DNA from: Pseudopyrenochaeta lycopersici
Lineage: Eukaryota; Ascomycota; Dothideomycetes; Pleosporales; Pseudopyrenochaetaceae
Assembly (NCBI GenBank): GCA_003313425.1
Contig: NHZP01000004.1
Coordinates: forward strand, 1 to 64,000
DNA length: 64,000 nt
Reading direction: 5' to 3'
Shown piece after piece: positions 11,353 through 20,565 of the stretch. The position numbers and the translations under genes are program-made. The notes under the pieces were generated by a model. It did no database searches. It saw only the letters and a program-made list of their open reading frames with translations, and was not told the DNA's origin. Numbering within the stretch: position 1 is the stretch's first letter; the number at the start of each line of letters is the position of its first letter.

Positions 11353-13195
11353 ACGTGTTCCACCAGTCAGTGGGCAACACCAGTCAGTGGGCCACCTCAT
11401 CAAAACAGGCGGATCTCAACGCACGATAATGCGACAACCACGCGGTAAGTTTACTAGTAAATATAGTAGTATTACTCTCTATCTTTGTTTACACGAAGTC
11501 CGATTGTGACCTTGAGTTCCGCATTTAGTGCAGGTTGGTGGTGCTCGTTGCCGAGGCCGAGAAGCCTCCTCCTCCACCCTCAAGTTTGAGGCTATTTCAC
11601 TAGCTACAGCCAACGCGCGACCTGCCTCAACCCGTAAGGCACCTCCAGCTACAATATATTGTTGCTGTTTGTCCTTCCTACGTCGTAAACGCGTGTTTAA
11701 GGCACGAAGTTTGCTGTTTTCCTCTATTAAGATTGTAGCTGAGTTCATAGCTAGCTGACAGCCTTTGACGAGCTGAGCGAGGGCCCGGCTTAAGGGGCTC
11801 TGTGATTGACGTTGAAGGAGCTCACGTATGAGGCGGGCCTGTTGATCAAGTTGATCAGTAGTGTGAGGCGTTTCTGTTGTCCAAACAGCCTCAGCCGTGG
11901 CTGCTGTCTGTGGAGGAGACGGTGTACGGACAACTGTCAATGTTGATAGGACACGTTCAGGACAAAACGGGACTAAGCCTGTCGCCCGAAAGCCTCTAAG
12001 GATGTTTGAGGCTGAGAAAACAGTTGTACGTATACGTGGATATATATAGAGAAATTCGTCCTTATCAATAAACTGCACCCGTTGGCGCGCAAGCCTGTCT
12101 ATCGCTTATCCGTACGCTGTCTTGAGAGGCGAGAAGCAACCAACATCAAGAGGCTATAGCTTGTGAGACGTATGAGGAGGCATGTAGAGGGTAATAATAT
12201 TCCTCTCTGCGCAGTAAGTATCGAACGCAGGCGTTGCGTAGCTGCTGTAGCCATCTAGTATAAGAAGGCGATAGCTTCCAATTGTACGTGAGGCCGTAAG
12301 GACGTCGAAATGCTTCAACCAGGCAAGGCCAAGGTCGTCAGTTGTCCATCCGTTGTCGCTCACACTAATACTCCAGTCCCTAGGCAGCTCAAGCTCAGGA
12401 CTATACCACGACGCCTGGTGGACCTTGCCCTTAAGGATAATAAAGGGAGGCAGTACAAAGCCTACAGCGCTCACACACTCGATTGTCGTCGTCCAGTCAC
12501 GGTTGCCAGGCTGTACAACAGTTGCTCGTCCGATAGTATCAGAGCTAGTAACAACCTTTGACGTTGAGGCGATACCCATCATAAACCCAGTCTCATCAAA
12601 GTTATACGTGTCCTCGTCTAATACCCCGTACGTCTGAATCGTGTCCCTCACAAGGCTATACCAGCTGTTTATCTTTATAGGATCCTCACATTTTGCGCGC
12701 TGTGAGTGGAATTTACGGTTCCACTTTGTTTGAAGCTCTGACTGAGCCCTAACAAAACGAGAGACCCAGTTTTTGCTAAGAGGAGGTGGAGGAGGCTGCT
12801 GGCCTCGTGCAGCGAGAAGAGCGTCTCCCATCTGACGTACGTCAATAATATGAGGCGGAAAGCCTCGTCGATCAAGCTCTAGTATCCATTGAACAAGGCT
12901 CTGTTCCTCAGTAGGCGTTAGCTTACGTTTCCGTGCGTTGGTGGTAGGTTGAGGCTGATAGCCTTTGAGGCGCCGTTGCAGCGTTGTTCGAGGGACACTA
13001 AACAGGTGCGCAGCCCTGCGCACACTTTTAATTTGTTGCAAATTAATTGCCTGAGACGCAAGAAGGACTCGGCCCTCCTTTTGAGCTACTAGAGGCTGTC
13101 GTTGCGTGGCCATTTGAGTTGTTGTGTGGGCAAGCGCGTTGGTGTTGATGAGGTGGCCCACTGACTGGTGTTGCCCACTGACTGGTGGAACACGT
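11353..13195 (-). mobile_element. Fot1/pogo-type Tc1-mariner transposon, 1,843 bp
   Basis: The element has nearly perfect 51-bp terminal inverted repeats (11353-11403 and 13145-13195) and a TA target duplication (11351-11352 and 13196-13197). Each TIR contains two direct copies of CACCAGTCAGTGGGC, 17 bp apart, likely paired transposase-binding sites. A single transposase gene fills the minus strand. Integration at TA, a TIR of about 50 bp and a DDE transposase with CENP-B-like DNA-binding region fit the fungal Fot1/Pot2 branch of pogo elements. The transposase has two premature stops, so this copy is probably non-autonomous, but its ends look competent. Confidence 0.93.
11479..13113 (-). pseudogene. 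Pogo/Fot1 transposase, broken by two RIP-type stops
   Basis: This DDE transposase would cut and paste the element at TA sites. I start it at the ATG at 13113; the frame is open from a GTG at 13161 inside the TIR. The order is an N-terminal helix-turn-helix (SVRRAAHLFSVPRTTLQRRL), a CENP-B/Tc5-type DNA-binding region (KLTPTEEQSLVQWILELDRRG ... SKNWVSRFV), then the DDE domain with first Asp in YNFDETGFMMGI and second Asp in LLILDGYSSYATP. Family members usually have DGHGSH there, so both His appear changed to Tyr by C-to-T. The third Asp is in PLDVGCF. TAG at 12154-12156 follows HTSHKL, where Gln is expected, and TAA lies at 12106-12108. The frame then stays open to 11479, ending in a zinc knuckle CTKCGTQGHNRTSC. 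Intact length would be about 544 residues. Confidence 0.9.
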
Positions 13196-13620: not shown

Positions 13621-13775
13621 CTAGAAATGTATGATTGATAAGTCGTACTAAAGCGGAAAAACGTGCAGATGTGCAAATAATAACATTAGGGACCGTGCTT
13701 ACTTTACACGAGCTACTTTAGTAGTGCGACCCTGTAGTATATTAGACAGTGGCCTTCCCAGCAAATAACTGTTTT

Positions 13776-13801
13776 CTTTCCGCGTACTTCTTTCCGCGTA
13801 C
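13776..13801 (+). promoter_or_regulatory. Direct repeat in the HET gene promoter
   Basis: Two perfect copies of CTTTCCGCGTAC (13776-13787 and 13790-13801) are separated by TT, 20 bp upstream of the HET gene ATG. The spacing suggests a paired protein-binding site or start-site element. No known factor is assigned. The close distance to the ATG also allows it to lie within the 5' UTR. Confidence 0.35.
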
Positions 13802-13821
13802 GATAATCTGGTCGGAGAGAA

Positions 13822-13878
13822 ATGGCTAACATAACGGAGGCTGATGTATCTCGAAACCGCAGTGACGACTATTTCCAG
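13822..13878 (+). CDS. Exon 1 of the HET gene
   Basis: The 57-nt exon starts at ATG with A at -3 (GAAATGG) and ends CAG followed by GTGAGT, a strong donor. It ends in phase 0, which sets the reading frame for every following three-nucleotide exon. Reading through the donor keeps an open frame only to about 14019, the unspliced form. Confidence 0.75.
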
Positions 13879-16800
13879 GTGAGTTTAGCGAAGGCTAGGA
13901 GTTGGAATATTGTTCCTGAGTATATTATTATTTTAGGAAGTAAGTGGGGTTCCTCACTAGAAAACGAAGTGACAGCTACTGTACTGATGCTGTTCTCTTG
14001 CGTCGCTATTAGCGAGTAAGTTAAGCCATGCATTCGAGACAGCAATAATTACTGATGCCGTTCTCTTGCGTCGCTATTAGGAGGTAAGTTGAGCCATGCA
14101 TTCAAGATGCAGCAATAGTTACTGATGCTGTTCTCTTGCGTCGCTATTAGGAGGTAAGTCGAGCCATGCATTTAAGATGCAGCGATGGTTACTAATACCG
14201 TTCTCTTTCGCCGCTATTAGGAGGTAAGTCGAGCTATGCATTTAAGGCGGAGCGATAGTTACTAATACCATTCTCTTTCGTCGCTATTAGCGAGTAAGTC
14301 GAGCTATACATTTAAGGCAGCGCAATGGTTACTAATGCCGTTCTCTTTCATCGCTATTAGCGAGTAAGTCGACCCATGCATTTAAGATGCAGTGATAGTT
14401 ACTTATGTCGTTCTCTTGCGTCGCTATTAGCGAGTAAGTCAAGCCATGCATTCGAGACAGCAATAGTGACTGATGCCGTACGCTCGCGTCGCTATTAGGG
14501 TGTAAGTCGGGTCATGCATTCAAGGCGGAGCGATGGTTATTAATGCAGTTTTCTTTTGTCGCTATTAGCGAGTAAGTTGAACCATGCATTCGAGACAGAG
14601 CGATGGTTACTGATACCGTTCTCTTGCGTCGCTATTAGGAGGTAAGTCGAGCCATGCATTTAAGATGCAGCGATGGTTACTAATACCGTTCTCTTTCGCC
14701 GCTATTAGGAGGTAAGTTAAGCTATGTATTTAAGGCGGAGTAATAGTTACTAATACTATTCTCTTTCATCGCTATTAGCTAGTAAGTCAAGCTATACATT
14801 TAAGGCAGCGTAATAGTTACTAATAGCGTTCTCTTTTACTGCTATTAGAAAGTAAGTCGAGCTATGCATTTAAGATGCAGCGATAGTTACTAATACTGTT
14901 CTCTTACGTCGCTATTAGTTAGTAAGTCGAGCCATACATTTAAGATGCAGCAATAGTTACTAATGCTGTTCTCTTTCATCGCTATTAGCTAGTAAGTCGA
15001 GCTATACATTTAAGGTAGCGCAATAGTTACTAATGGCGTTCTCTTTCGCCGCTATTAGCGAGTAAGTTAAGCTATGCCTTTAAGATAGAGCGATAGTTAC
15101 TAATGCTGTTCTTGCGTTGCTATTAGGAGGTAAGTTAAGCTATGCATTTAAGATGCAGCAATAGTTACTAATGCTGTTCTCTTTTATTGCTATTAGCTAG
15201 TAAGTTAAGCTATACATTTAAGGCAGCGCAATAGTTACTAATGCTGTTCTCTTTCGCTACTATTAGGAGGTAAGTTAAGCTATATATTAAAGGCGGAGCG
15301 ATAGTTACTAATACTATTCTCTTATATCGCTATTAGTTAGTAAGTTAAGCTATGTATTTAAGATATAGTAATAGTTACTAATACTGTTCTCTTTCATTAC
15401 TATTAGCTAGTAAGTTAAGCTATATATTTAAGGCAGCGTAATAGTTACTAATAGCGTTCTCTTTTACCGCTATTAGCAAGTAAGTTAAGCTATGCATTTA
15501 AGATAGAGTAATAGTTACTAATACTATTCTCTTACATTACTATTAGGAGGTAAGTTAAGCTATGTATTTAAGATACAGTAATAGTTACTAATGCTATTCT
15601 CTTTTATTACTATTAGCGAGTAAGTTAAGCTATATATTTAAGGCAGCGTAATAGTTACTAATAGCGTTCTCTTTTACTACTATTAGCAAGTAAGTTAAGC
15701 TATATATTTAAGATAGAGCGACAGTTACTAATACTGTTCTCTTACGTCGCTATTAGGAGGTAAGTTAAGCTATACATTTAAGATGTAGTAATAGTTACTA
15801 ATACTATTCTCTTTTATTACTATTAGCTAGTAAGTTAAGCTATGTATTTAAGGCAGAGCAATAGTTACTAATGCCGTTCTCTTTCGCCGCTATTAGCTAG
15901 TAAGTTAAGCTATATATTTAAGGCAGCGTAATAGTTACTAATGCCGCTCTCTTGCGTTGCTATTAGCGAGTAAGTTAAGCTATACATTTAATATGCAGTA
16001 ATAGTTACTAATACTGTTCTCTTTTATCGCTATTAGGAAGTAAGTTAAGTAATACATTTAAGGCGGAGTAATAGTTACTAATGCTGTTCTCTTTTATTAC
16101 TATTAGATAGTAAGTTAAGCTATAGATTTAAGACAGAGCAATAGTTACTAATGCCGTTCTCTTGCGTCGCTATTAGGAGGTAAGTTAAGCTATGCATTCA
16201 AGGTAGAGCGATGGTTACTAATGCCGTTCTCTTGCATCGCTATTAGTTTGTAAGTTAAGCTATACATTCAAGACAGAGCGATGGTTACTAATACTGCTCT
16301 CTTTTGCCGCTATTAGGAGGTAAGTCGAGCATGCATTCAAGATAGAGCAATAGCTACTGATGCCGTTCTCTTTCATCGCTATTAGTTTGTAAGTTGAGCC
16401 ATTCATTCAAACAGTAATGGTTACTGATACTGTTCTCTTGCGTCGCTATTAGCGAGTAAGTCAAGCCATTCATTTAAGACAGTAATAGTTACTGATGCTG
16501 TTCTCTTGTGTCGCTATTAGAATGTAAGTTAAGCCATGCATTCAAGGCGGAGTGATGGTTACTAATACCGCTCTCTTACGTCGCTCTTAGTATGTAAGTT
16601 AAGCCATGCATCTAAGACAGTAATAGTTACTAATGCCGTTCTCTTGCGTCGCTATTAGCGAGTAAGACAAGCCATGCATTCGAGATAGCAATAATTACTG
16701 ATGCCGTTCTCTTGCGTCGCTATTAGTTTGTAAGTTGAGCCATTCATTCAAGACAGTAATGGTTACTGATGCCGTTCTCTTGCGTCGCTATTAGCGAGTA

Positions 16801-19800
16801 AGTTAAGCCATGCATTCAAGGCGGAGCGGTGGTTACTAATGCCGTTCTCTTTCATTGCTATTAGCAAGTAAGTCGAGCATGCATTCAAGATAGAGCAATA
16901 GCTACTAATGCCGCTCTCTTTCATCGCTATTAGGAGGTAAGTTGAGCCATGCATTCAAGGTAGAGCGATAGTTACTGATGCCGTTCTCTTGCATCGCTAT
17001 TAGTTTGTAAGTTAAGCTATATATTTAAGACAGAGCGATAGTTACTAATACTGCTCTCTTTCATTGCTATTAGCAAGTAAGTCGAGTATGCATTCAAGAT
17101 AGTGCAATAGCTACTGATGCCGCTCTCTTTCATCGCTATTAGGGTGTAAGTTGAGCCATTTATTCAAGACAGTAATAGTTACTGATGCCGCTCTCTTGCG
17201 TCGCTATTAGCGAGTAAGTCAAGCCATTCATTTAAGACAGTAATAGTCACTAATGCTGTTCTCTTGTGTCGCTATTAGAATGTAAGTTAAGCCATGCATT
17301 CAAGGCGGAGTAATAGTTACTAATACCGCTCTCTTACGTCGCTCTTAGTATGTAAGTTAAGCTATGCATCTAAGACAGTAATAGTTACTAATGCCGTTCT
17401 CTTGCGTCGCTATTAGCGAGTAAGACAAGCCATGCATTCGAGATAGCAATAATTACTAATGCCGTTCTCTTTCGCCGCTATTAGGAGGTAAGTAAAGCCA
17501 TGCATTTAAGATGTAGTAATAGCTACTAATATTATTCTCTTTCATCACTATTAGCGAGTAAGTTAAGCTATACATTTAAGGCAGCGCAATAGTTACTAAT
17601 GCTGTTCTCTTTTATCGCTATTAGCGAGTAAGTTAAGCTATACATTTAAGATGCAGCGATAGTTACTAATACTGTTGTCTTTCGCCGCTATTAGGAGGTA
17701 AGTTAAGCTATATATTTAAGGCGGAGCGATAGTTACTAATGCTAATCTCTTTTATCGCTATTAGATAGTAAGTTAAGCTATACATTTAAGGCGGAGTAAT
17801 AGTTACTAATACTATTCTCTTACGTCGCTATTAGGAGGTAAGTTAAGCTATATATTTAAGATGCAGCGATAGTTACTAATCCCGTTCTCTTTCGCCGCTA
17901 TTAGGAGGTAAGTTAAGCTATACATTTAAGATGTAGTAATAGTTACTAATACTGTCCTCTTTCATTACTATTAGCTAGTAAGTTAAGCTATATATTTAAG
18001 GTAGCGCAATAGTTACTAATAGCGTTCTCTTTTACCGCTATTAGCGAGTAAGTTAAGCTATGCATTTAAGATGCAGTAATAGTTACTAATACTATTCTCT
18101 TACATCGCTATTAGCAAGTAAGTTAAGCTATATATTTAAGATAGAGCGATAGTTACTAATACTGTTCTCTTGCGTTACTATTAGGAGGTAAGTTAAGCTA
18201 TATATTTAAGATGCAGTAATAGTTACTAATATTATTCTCTTTCGCCGCTATTAGGAAGTAAGTTAAGCTATGCATTCAAGACAGAGTAATAGTTACTAAT
18301 GCTATTCTCTTTTACCGCTATTAGAATGTAAATCAAGCCATATATTAAAGACGCAGCAATATTTACTAATGCCGCTCTCTTTCGCCGCTATTAGGAGGTA
18401 AGTAGAGCCATAAATTTAACACAGAGCAATAGTTACTAATGCCGTTCTCTTTCATCGCTATTAGTTTGTAAGTGAAGCCATACATTCAAGACAGAGCGAT
18501 GGCTACTGATACTGCTCTCTCTCATTGCTATTAGTTTGTAAGCCGAGTCATGCAGTCAACAAGGAATGATACAACTGCTGACCTTGTTTTCCAAATCTTC
18601 GTAGTGGGTAAGTTAAGTCATGAAAGGTTTCCTCGCTCGGCGTTGATCGAAACTAAACAAGTACGCAAACAATCATTGGAAGTTTTCTAAGGACGATCTG
18701 TTCGCAACTCGCTTTTGCGAAAACCGTAGAAGATCCGGCATGCTCCCCGAGTATGGACAATCTCAAAACATATGCGAACGCTGCAGCAAAATCAACCTGA
18801 ATGACCCAATTAGTCTGTCTCAGTTGCAGGCCAGAGCAGGCCGTTGCGATCTATGCAACATGCTGTCTCGCTGCCTCGAGCGGCATGGAATAAGTGGGCA
18901 GCAAGAAATTCAGCTCCTCAACAGTCGGCATATTGTGAGAATTTGTGCTATTCCAGGTCGGTTAACAAAACCAGCGGAGCCGCGTATCGAGTTAGGGCTT
19001 CCAGTATTACCAGAGGCCAGCGGTCCATTTTATTTCGAATTACTCCGTGAGTGGCTGCAATCCTGCAATCATGATATAGGCCATAAGCGCTTGGGATGCG
19101 GCAACAATTCCAATGCCGAATTGCCCACTCGAGTCATTGATGTGGGAGATAATAACACCGGTTTTCTGCGCCTTTATCACCCCGACAAGCCTGAAGAGGC
19201 AGAATACATTGCTTTGTCCCATTGCTGGGGGAAACTCCCGCAGGTACTCAAAGACGAATTCTGCACCGTTTCAGCAAACGTCGACAAGAGGAAGCGTGAG
19301 GGAATCAGCATGGATGTCTTGCCGCAGACATTTAAAGATGCGGTTACAGTCACTCGAGAACTCGGCAAACGATACCTCTGGATTGACTCGCTGTGCATCA
19401 TTCAGGACGACCCAAATGACTGGGCCATTGAGTCCAAACGCATGGAGGCTGTCTTTACTAATGCCTACTGCACGATTGCCGCAGACTCGGCGGCAGATTC
19501 TACCGTGGGATTCCTCAAAGAACGGCAGCTGCCACAGTATGTTGAAGTCCCGGACTCTGCGCATGGTCGAATTTACATTTGCGAAGCGATTGATGACTTC
19601 CATCGTGACGTGGAGGAAGGGGTCCTGGCTCAGCGAGCGTGGGTACTACAAGAAAGAGCCCTGTCACGACGAACGATTCATTTCACTACAAACCAGTTAT
19701 ATTGGGAATGTGGTAACGGGGTGCGCTGCGAAACTCTTGCCCATATGCGCAAGTGAGTCCTCTACTATTTGATCTCCATTGATCTCCATTTGCTTGAGCT

Positions 19801-20565
19801 ATCCACTTTGATTCAAAGGTTTAATCGTCTCTAATCTTTAATATCAGTTCGAAATCGCTCTTTTTAAGCGACCCAAAGTTCCCAAAGACCCTCAGAGACC
19901 GTTCTGAGTCTTCTAAAATCGACCTTTTTCAGACTCTCTTTGCGAGCTACTCACGGTTAGGCATTACAAAGAGTGCTGACAGGACCATTGCGATTTCTGG
20001 GCTGGAAAAGCGGCTAGCAGACACCTTTCGAACACAGGGCAGGCACGGCGTCTTCGAAAACTATCTTCACAGAAGCCTCCTATGGGAGCGGTCCGAGGAT
20101 ACTAGGATGAAGCGGATACTGTACCTAACCGATCGGAGGGTACCGTCTTGGTCTTGGATGGCATACCAAGGAGTAATTGACTATGTCGACATTCCGTTTA
20201 ACCGCGTTGAATGGCATAAAGCCGTCCAACTTAGGGGAGACGTCTTAGAGGCTCGGGTGAGAGAGTTCCGGAGTTTGCAGTTAGAACAGAAGGATGGGAA
20301 ATGTGTTATACAGGATGGAACAGCCAGCTCCGGAAAATGGTGGCTGAAATACGACGGAGAAGATAGCGCAGATCTGCAGACGCTTCATGTCGCTGTTATT
20401 GGAAGGGAGAATGGTCAATCAGGCGATGGACGAAGATACTACATACTGGTTGTTAAGCCACGATGCTTGGAAGGATTCCGAACATTCGAGAGGGTTGCTG
20501 TTGGTTGTGTTCCGGAGAAGTTGATATCATTTGAGAGCCAAGAGGTTTGCGGCAAAATATTTTAG
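13822..20565 (+). CDS. HET-domain allorecognition protein with an array of single-codon exons
   Basis: The predicted product is 679 aa. Exons are 13822-13878 (19 codons, starting MANITEADVSRNRSDDYFQ), 68 three-nucleotide exons between 13937 and 18607, 18692-19752, and 19848-20565. All joins keep frame, and introns follow GT...AG with CTRAY branch sites; the last intron (19753-19847) has GTGAGT, CTAAT and CAG. In the protein, residues 20-87 come from the codon array, then two Cys pairs (C115-x2-C118, C139-x2-C142) typical of HET N-termini. The HET domain follows from about residue 259 (YIALSHCWG), with RYLWIDSLCIIQDD in the middle and AWVLQERALSRR near 404. The C-terminal PSWSWM motif is at about 540. 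HET proteins trigger incompatibility cell death after non-self recognition. The HET exons carry no disabling mutation. HET identity is firm; translation of the array is inferred. Confidence 0.8.
13879..13936 (+). other. Intron 1 of the HET gene (58 bp)
   Basis: Begins GTGAGT, has a T-rich tract, and ends TTTTAG directly before the first codon-exon GAA (13937-13939). It is not homologous to the tandem units and probably reflects the ancestral single intron. Confidence 0.65.
13937..18607 (+). repeat. Tandem mini-intron array with 68 hypervariable single-codon exons
   Basis: Every unit is GTAAGT, about 40 bp, TTACTAATG or TTACTGATG (branch site), TTCTCTT, then TATTAG; intron length is mostly 64-67 bp. 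Exactly three bases separate each TAG from the next GTAAG. Triplet start positions: GAG 14081, 14151, 14221, 14639, 14709, 15127, 15267, 15547, 15757, 16177, 16317, 16934, 17485, 17695, 17835, 17905, 18185, 18395; CGA 14013, 14291, 14361, 14431, 14569, 15059, 15617, 15967, 16453, 16659, 16795, 17211, 17417, 17555, 17625, 18045; CTA 14779, 14989, 15197, 15407, 15827, 15897, 17975; TTT 16247, 16386, 16727, 17004, 18465, 18535; CAA 15477, 15687, 16865, 17074, 18115; GAA 13937, 16037, 18255; AAT 16521, 17279, 18325; GGT 14499, 17143; ATA 16107, 17765; TTA 14919, 15337; TAT 16591, 17349; AAA 14849; TGG 18605. None is a stop. Encoded residues: 21 Glu, 16 Arg, 9 Leu, 6 Phe, 5 Gln, few others. Array residues 11-22 read EELKLLRELELL, coiled-coil-like. 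Confidence 0.85.
18538..18604 (+). other. Diverged penultimate array intron (67 bp)
   Basis: It starts GTAAGC and its first bases still resemble the unit (CGAGTCATGCA), but the rest is unrelated. It has CTGAC as branch site, a T-rich tract and CGTAG as acceptor, followed by the TGG codon at 18605-18607. It forms the right border of the homogeneous tandem repeat. Confidence 0.6.
18608..18691 (+). other. Last array intron (84 bp) before the HET-domain exon
   Basis: Begins GTAAGTTAAGTCATG, like the array units, then diverges. CTAAAC is a plausible branch site, and the acceptor is TTCTAAG at 18691. The exon from 18692 is in phase 0 with the codon array and joins the open HET frame 16 codons upstream of the Met at 18740. 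Confidence 0.65.
19753..19847 (+). other. Conventional intron in the HET gene (95 bp)
   Basis: Donor GTGAGT lies after ATG CGC AA, CTAAT is the branch site, and ATATCAG the acceptor. Splicing forms AA+T (Asn) and joins HMR to SKSLFLSDPKF, restoring an uninterrupted frame to the TAG at 20563-20565. Without splicing the frame stops at TGA within the donor. Confidence 0.8.

Follow-up and report, generated by a model that had tools for sequence, protein, structure and literature searches.

A HET-domain gene of Pseudopyrenochaeta lycopersici with an N-terminal segment probably encoded by 68 single-codon exons

Can a coding segment be divided into exons of a single codon each, dozens in a row? The question is raised by a HET-domain gene (C4) of Pseudopyrenochaeta lycopersici, located at positions 13822-20565 of the window, i.e. 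the first 64,000 nucleotides of contig NHZP01000004.1 (assembly GCA_003313425.1), forward strand. A tandem array of short intron-like repeats separates its exon 1 from the exon carrying the HET domain. A preliminary description had proposed that the array is spliced codon by codon. Comparison with the paralogs, rather than RNA, strongly supports this proposal: C4 is very probably a HET gene whose N-terminal segment derives from 68 one-codon exons, with units gained and lost in frame. The gene model comprises the following features.

13822-13878, forward strand: exon 1 with the start codon, MANITEADVSRNRSDDYFQ, ending in phase 0 at CAG/GTGAGT; assigned by eye and homology
13879-13936, forward strand: intron 1, 58 nt, sequence read and counted
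13937-18607, forward strand: array of 68 single-codon exons; its 67 introns measure 64-67 nt, apart from one of 73 nt
18608-18661, forward strand: final intron of the array (54 nt), separating the TGG codon from the HET exon; the counterpart in paralog C27 is also 54 nt
18662-19752, forward strand: HET exon, YANNHWKFSKDDLFATRF..., starting in phase 0; start chosen by homology
19205-19654, forward strand: Pfam HET domain PF06985, E 7.4e-31
19753-19847, forward strand: ordinary intron, 95 nt; P0001, a public protein with 98% identity, reads through it
19848-20565, forward strand: last exon through the stop codon TAG

The array was read and counted directly, and the 68 triplets described earlier were recovered. 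The introns between them measure 67 nt (51 introns), 65 nt (11), 66 nt (3), 64 nt (1) and 73 nt (1); the 64-67 nt spacing first given thus holds for most of them. The donor GTAAG, claimed to follow every triplet, follows 67, the remaining one (AAT, 18325) being followed by GTAAA. The acceptor had been given as (T/C)TTAG. TTAG is present, but the base before it is usually A, and the literal expression [TC]TTAG matches only 3 times; the acceptor is mostly TATTAG (CTATTAG in 63 of 67 counted). There is, as earlier noted, a branch site of the CTAAT or CTGAT type; its place is constant (position 29, counted from the intron end) in 61 of 66 introns. Within 13822-18740 the pattern TAG-N(k)-GTAAG occurs 67 times with k=3 and never with k=0-2 or 4-12. 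Tandem Repeats Finder reports 65.4 copies with a period of 70. All 68 array exons are 3 nt long and in phase 0, i.e. very short, symmetric internal exons as in micro-exon genes, these being features of the sequence and not of transcripts. Concatenated, the triplets encode EREEERRRGREELKLLRELELLQERQELLREIEFEFRNYRFRQEFQGRNYRERREIEELRQEENEFFW, which is free of stops and of Pro as originally reported. The characterization of this segment as E/R/L/Q-rich and coiled-coil-like applies to C4; the other arrays differ in composition and encode Gly/Gln-, Asp/Arg/Tyr- or Pro/Ile-containing segments.

The limits of exon 1 and its phase agree with the preliminary description. A stricter version of our segmentation falsely split this exon, and it was assigned by eye and by homology to the 57-nt exon 1 of C27, MSSITETNISPNHDNNYFK. 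The HET exon had been placed at 18692 in phase 0. The phase is correct, but the exon most likely starts at 18662 (TAC GCA AAC AAT CAT TGG). The candidate acceptors at 18661 (first segmentation), 18682 (stricter version) and 18691 (preliminary description) all give phase 0; the first segmentation tolerated acceptors too near the branch site, which produced false 23-nt exons in C27. The start at 18662 is preferred because the stretch 18662-18691 (YANNHWKFSK) is open in C4, because C27 (NANDEWDFSK) was segmented at the corresponding place, and because public HET proteins carry a W-x4-D-N-x-F-A motif there. The last array intron is therefore 54 nt long and the predicted protein 689 aa. With 69 introns before the HET exon and the one at 19753-19847, the model contains 70 introns, the number given at the outset. 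The HET domain scores 107.9 bits against a Pfam gathering cut-off of 22.5 and thus belongs to PF06985.

Is the array peculiar to this gene? When the genome (62.7 Mb) was searched with one C4 repeat unit, the best-scored candidates were C4 itself, another array, located on contig C27, and the relic of a C4/C27-type array, two units long, on C42 (L034, reverse strand, G000:C42:344744-344865), beside which no HET exon was present in the sequence read. C27 is 72% identical to C4 over the HET exon and has the same plan, with a 57-nt exon 1 and 26 triplets, the first GAA and the last TGG. The codons between these shared ends differ from those of C4 (ERLNRWKRGGKRGKLKEWEVKRRRLW). Other arrays, found by pattern search and through HET paralogs, consist of a different unit of 68 bp, or of 71 bp on C13. 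The genome contains 122 HET matches, of which 20 loci with flanks were surveyed for arrays. At 15 of the 20 an array adjoins the HET exon on its upstream side; no array was seen within 1.5 kb flanks at C41, C25, C58, C34 and C18. Two further array loci, C64 and C46b, were found via pattern or unit matches. The best-scored candidates with a C51 unit lay at the HET loci C51, C64, C46 and C43, plus a match at C68:150074. Array lengths depend on the assembly. The HET exons are under purifying selection, dN/dS being 0.34 and 0.22 for the two exons compared between C4 and C27, and 0.21 for C54 vs C2. The HET paralog on C68 (G000:C68:176105-176857) has an array remnant and 18 stops in its HET match, and is a decayed family member.

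The arrays were segmented by a dynamic-programming chain allowing introns of 45-95 nt and exons of 1-40 nt, with weights for generic fungal donor, branch and acceptor that were not trained on arrays. Over 19 loci, 418 of 455 internal exons were exactly 3 nt. They are distributed as C4 68, C51 66, C13 65, C2 35, C54 31, C78 30, C46 30, C27 26 and C43c 26 in the larger arrays and C43a 9, C115 8, C12 8, C63 5, C43b 4, C68 4 and C64 3 in the smaller ones, with none in C41, C25 and C58. In the C78/C2/C64 group the chain swallowed exon 1, which was assigned by eye. On the reverse strand scores were low, chains short and lengths mixed, except at C4 (score 244 vs 725 forward) and C13, where the repeat produces periodic false exons of 4, 5, 21 or 26 nt. 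Dinucleotide shuffles of four stretches (100 per stretch) gave 3-nt exons in 18/609, 26/815, 15/484 and 9/655 cases, 68/2563 in total and at most 2 per shuffle, compared with 17/17, 15/16, 9/9 and 26/26 (67/68) in the real counterparts. Genome-wide, two successive 3-nt exons between GTAAGT donors gave 273 overlapping matches, a HET-gene location not being claimed for every one, while the reversed pattern gave none and a 4-nt version one. Because of these pattern counts and the shuffles, chance is excluded as the cause of the 3-nt spacing. An earlier, looser two-unit pattern gave 86 matches and one control match; C28:330231 and C49:347744 (G000) are a similar pair of single matches to it, unlike the HET arrays.

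Do the triplets behave as coding sequence? There is no stop among the 418 triplets of the 19 loci. In a set of 12 non-redundant loci, from which the copies C46, C115 and C43b, the decayed C68 and three array-free loci were dropped, none of 372 triplets is a stop; within-array column shuffles expect 17.4, and each of 5000 trials gave at least 7. At C13, the 16 introns adjoining the HET exon (61-77 nt) have a core identity of 0.54 vs 0.49 when shuffled, and their donors are GTAAGT in 9/16 and variants in 7/16; they still flank 3-nt exons. The exon length of 3 nt has thus persisted where the sequence of the introns has not. In all eight arrays tested, the four most variable columns include codon positions 1 and 2. 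Variation in the intron columns consists chiefly of transitions, the minor purine/pyrimidine class averaging 0.004-0.071 and reaching 0.48 in single columns; codon position 1 varies by transversions too (minor class 0.36-0.49). In C51, 241 unit pairs have introns with no more than one difference over 65 sites; codon positions 1, 2 and 3 differ in 59, 64 and 31% of these pairs, respectively. The decoupling of codons from intron divergence reflects either strong diversifying selection or homogenization of the introns with the codons preserved by selection.

The mode of change of the arrays was examined by comparing units. In the eight larger arrays, two units that encode one and the same residue agree in their codon in 1297 of 1464 pairs if both belong to one array, and in 1941 of 4837 if they belong to different arrays. 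Codon types thus appear to be propagated as units are copied. In C4 the block CGA AAT TAT CGA occurs twice with like introns (triplets 37-40 and 48-51), the codon string alone not being beyond shuffles. Linkage of codon to intron was clear in C4, C13 and C54, restricted to the upstream intron in C51 and C2, and absent in C78, C43c and C27. The 63 units compared in C51 differ at a mean of 3.8/65 intron sites. C78, C46 and C115 are copies of one array gene. C115 shares exon 1, the array ends and the first 121 HET-exon residues with C78 and has 8 vs 30 triplets in the chains; the array tails of the two differ at 38 of 410 aligned sites.

The family is also recognizable in exon 1, which ends in phase 0 and encodes MENKWSFT (C78, C46, C115), MEKKWSFT (C2), MEEEWSFT (C64), ...EDNWSFT (C54), ...TWEDYMFT (C51), MGQEMWEDGLFQ (C43c) or MSQEGWDDSMFE (C43a), the peptides of the WSFT group having been assigned by eye. 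MSKGEIA (C12) and MK (C13) are outliers, and C4 and C27 are without the W. In two of three protein searches 120 matches each were listed, of 2996 and 2034. Among them, the closest named protein is P0002 of Pyrenochaeta sp., 88-94% to C27. P0001 is without the 5′ part of the gene, and P0124 has MVQDRDRVVRYEER ahead of YNNW (619 aa on a 2106-bp contig); we infer that these two are cDNA-like entries, taking the label 'lgn' to denote assembled SRA contigs. P0097 of Phaeosphaeriaceae sp. PMI808 starts with MENKWSFT like C78 and continues with repeated EAAANASVLGGVAV-like strings, which are what the 68-bp unit yields in translation. P0101 of the same strain carries similar strings, and on visual inspection P0070 (Macroventuria) and P0150 (Decorospora) resemble the two. 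All four are apparently mis-modelled arrays, with what look like translated intron units. Such units seem to occur in other fungi, where gene callers would read into them.

Upstream of the C4 gene, an open reading frame resembling a transposase (DDE_1, E 7e-25; HTH_Tnp_Tc5) lies at 12154-13194 on the reverse strand. Two tandem copies of TTCTTTCCGCGTAC are located at 13774-13801, 20-48 nt ahead of the C4 start codon, and a single copy is located ahead of exon 1 of C27 (L033). This sequence is a possible promoter element.

Could the array be a minisatellite that arose from an intron and lies within a single large intron? In that case exon 1 would be spliced straight to the HET exon, or transcription would start in the HET exon, and the triplets would be non-coding. 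The outermost splice sites, namely the first donor and the last acceptor, are present under either reading. In agreement with such a structure, P0072 of Lepidopterella is annotated with exon 1 joined straight to the HET exon (MGAEKWKDSSFQ followed directly by YDGWEHTFDNNFA), and P0002 begins at a Met inside the HET exon. Dead repeats, however, would not be expected to avoid stops in 418 triplets, to retain 3-nt exons amid nearly unalignable introns, or to be hypervariable in the codon columns and not in the neighbouring ones. For these reasons this explanation was rejected as the principal one, and we regard it as improbable. The introns themselves could instead be the product, the gene serving as a host for small intron-encoded RNAs like SNHG14, whose tandem introns, also of one size (excerpts of PMC11608373), carry SNORD115/116. 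This was rejected, since no Rfam match was obtained in 13800-18800 up to E=1 and the folds of three consensus introns do not surpass those of shuffled sequences (z 0.87, -0.60 and 0.53); moreover, introns differ between paralogs while the codons avoid stops, and a role as RNA host appears very improbable. An artefact of assembly or repeat collapse deserves still less credence. Long near-identical repeats such as C51 could have a wrong copy number, but the C4 units differ at a mean of 11.7/67 intron sites (43 units), the arrays occupy 17 distinct genomic positions, and translated units appear in proteins annotated from another strain.

A further alternative concerns the origin of the array and not its coding. 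Mobile introner-like introns could have invaded a continuous coding stretch at every codon boundary, in which case the introns would be young and the codons old. Introner-like elements exist in Pezizomycotina (excerpts of PMC4457414 and PMC9860276), and the introns are near-identical within an array while the codons are diverse and, in C51, weakly linked to intron variants. Invasion leaves the exact 3-nt insertion spacing unexplained. The commoner sharing of codons by same-residue pairs within arrays is expected if codon and intron were copied as a unit, and both the repeated CGA AAT TAT CGA block with its like introns and the C115 array, which has fewer triplets than C78 between ends shared with it, also speak against invasion. 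Among the best-scored candidates, the unit searches gave HET-locus arrays, the C42 relic and one match that was not examined (C68:150074), with no spread to other genes. A dispersed introner family was rejected on this basis, and invasion is considered unlikely.

Several points weigh against splicing of C4 codon by codon. The segmentation picks sites for good splice signals, whose presence is thus partly by construction; exon length is not. Of the segmented exons, 37/455 are not 3 nt. As we read them, most lie outside arrays, in array-free loci or the decayed C68, or use a second AG within the unit; the C13 array contains two (26 and 28 nt). The C46b chain is mixed: 6/9 segmented exons are 3 nt, and the donor of one unit is GC. 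Between C4 and C27, exon 1 gives no sign of purifying selection (dN/dS 1.47 on 19 codons). The near-identical C78 and C46 differ by one synonymous change in 90 triplet sites vs 10 changes in 2220 others, a comparison without statistical power. The model of P0072 joins exon 1 to the HET exon, that of P0002 begins within the HET exon, those of P0097 and P0101 read through the units, and no proven array codons were found in the relatives' gene models inspected. When the predicted C78 product from exon 1 through the array into the HET start was searched against proteins, no match was obtained at E<=1, a weak negative because the conserved HET start was also unmatched. No description of a single-codon exon array, or of splicing through dozens of 3-nt exons, was recognized in the sampled portion of the open-licence PMC literature.

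How would such a transcript be processed? According to the codon-by-codon reading, each 64-73-nt intron, with its own donor, branch site and acceptor, would be removed by intron definition. The efficiency of intron definition depends on intron length and not on exon length (excerpts of PMC8624252), and tiny exons are therefore not forbidden. The introns would most likely leave in 5′-to-3′ order, since a 3-nt exon should not fit two spliceosomes at once, and exon 1 would gain one codon per splicing event. The array would grow and shrink by duplication and loss of a 'codon + intron' unit. As every unit holds three coding nucleotides in phase 0, gain, loss or skipping of an exon keeps the frame. 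Homogenization of introns within an array, with codons kept diverse, would lead to a paralog-specific low-complexity segment before the conserved HET domain. In the resulting HET protein, the segment ahead of that domain would be fast-evolving and of low complexity. HET-domain proteins are linked to self-recognition; by family membership, the segment may contribute to the specificity of recognition or assembly, including that of self/non-self discrimination or of a death trigger.

Some features of the C4-type arrays are found in known systems. The micro-exon genes (MEGs) of schistosomes have short symmetric exons in a row, which can be skipped in frame, and encode fast-evolving products at the host interface. 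C4-type arrays also have many short symmetric exons in a row, all of one codon, whereas MEG exons are longer and, to our knowledge, the introns between them are not tandem repeats of each other. In incompatibility genes of the HET-domain/NWD2 type, exchange of WD40-type repeat units diversifies recognition. The HET domain is common to both; each repeat there is a protein domain of ~40 residues, whereas each C4-type unit gives one residue. The aphid bicycle/megacycle genes have numerous microexons, ~17 exons on average and >100 in megacycle, but their internal exons are almost all in phase 2 and the insect proteins that they encode are unrelated; the excerpts of PMC9168663 mention no single-codon array. 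Introner-like elements of Dothideomycetes and other Pezizomycotina are near-identical full introns multiplied in fungal genes. Near-identical copies are present within our arrays too, but introner copies lie in unrelated genes, whereas C4-type copies are arranged in tandem at intervals of one codon within a single gene family. In Zymoseptoria, tandem duplication within a gene accounts for under 1% of single intron gains (excerpts of PMC4457414 for introners). Very short exons also occur in Trichoderma Xlr2 (PMC11121469) and in Dactylellina lipS, which has two 3-nt exons (PMC5639578); in the excerpted texts these genes have one or two microexons each and no arrays. The microexon label usually extends up to 36 bp, and functional microexons had not previously been described in filamentous fungi according to the 2024 paper, as excerpted (PMC11121469).

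Should RNA data bear out the splicing, these genes would have an architecture of a new kind. They would show the finest partition of coding sequence known to us, with one codon per exon, dozens consecutively, throughout a gene family. They allow tests of how the spliceosome handles consecutive 3-nt exons and of whether the order must be 5′ to 3′, as well as of the creation of introns by tandem duplication and of the use of introns as a DNA-level repeat that lets a protein segment change in length and sequence without loss of frame. More tentatively, the arrays may form a system that diversifies a protein residue by residue, in which cassettes are gained, lost, shuffled and possibly skipped in frame, giving each paralog, allele or even transcript its own low-complexity segment for recognition or oligomerization. 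In that case up to 68 independent in-frame choices per transcript would in principle be possible. The arrays also suggest why gene callers mis-model the genes of relatives, and such segments may be overlooked elsewhere.

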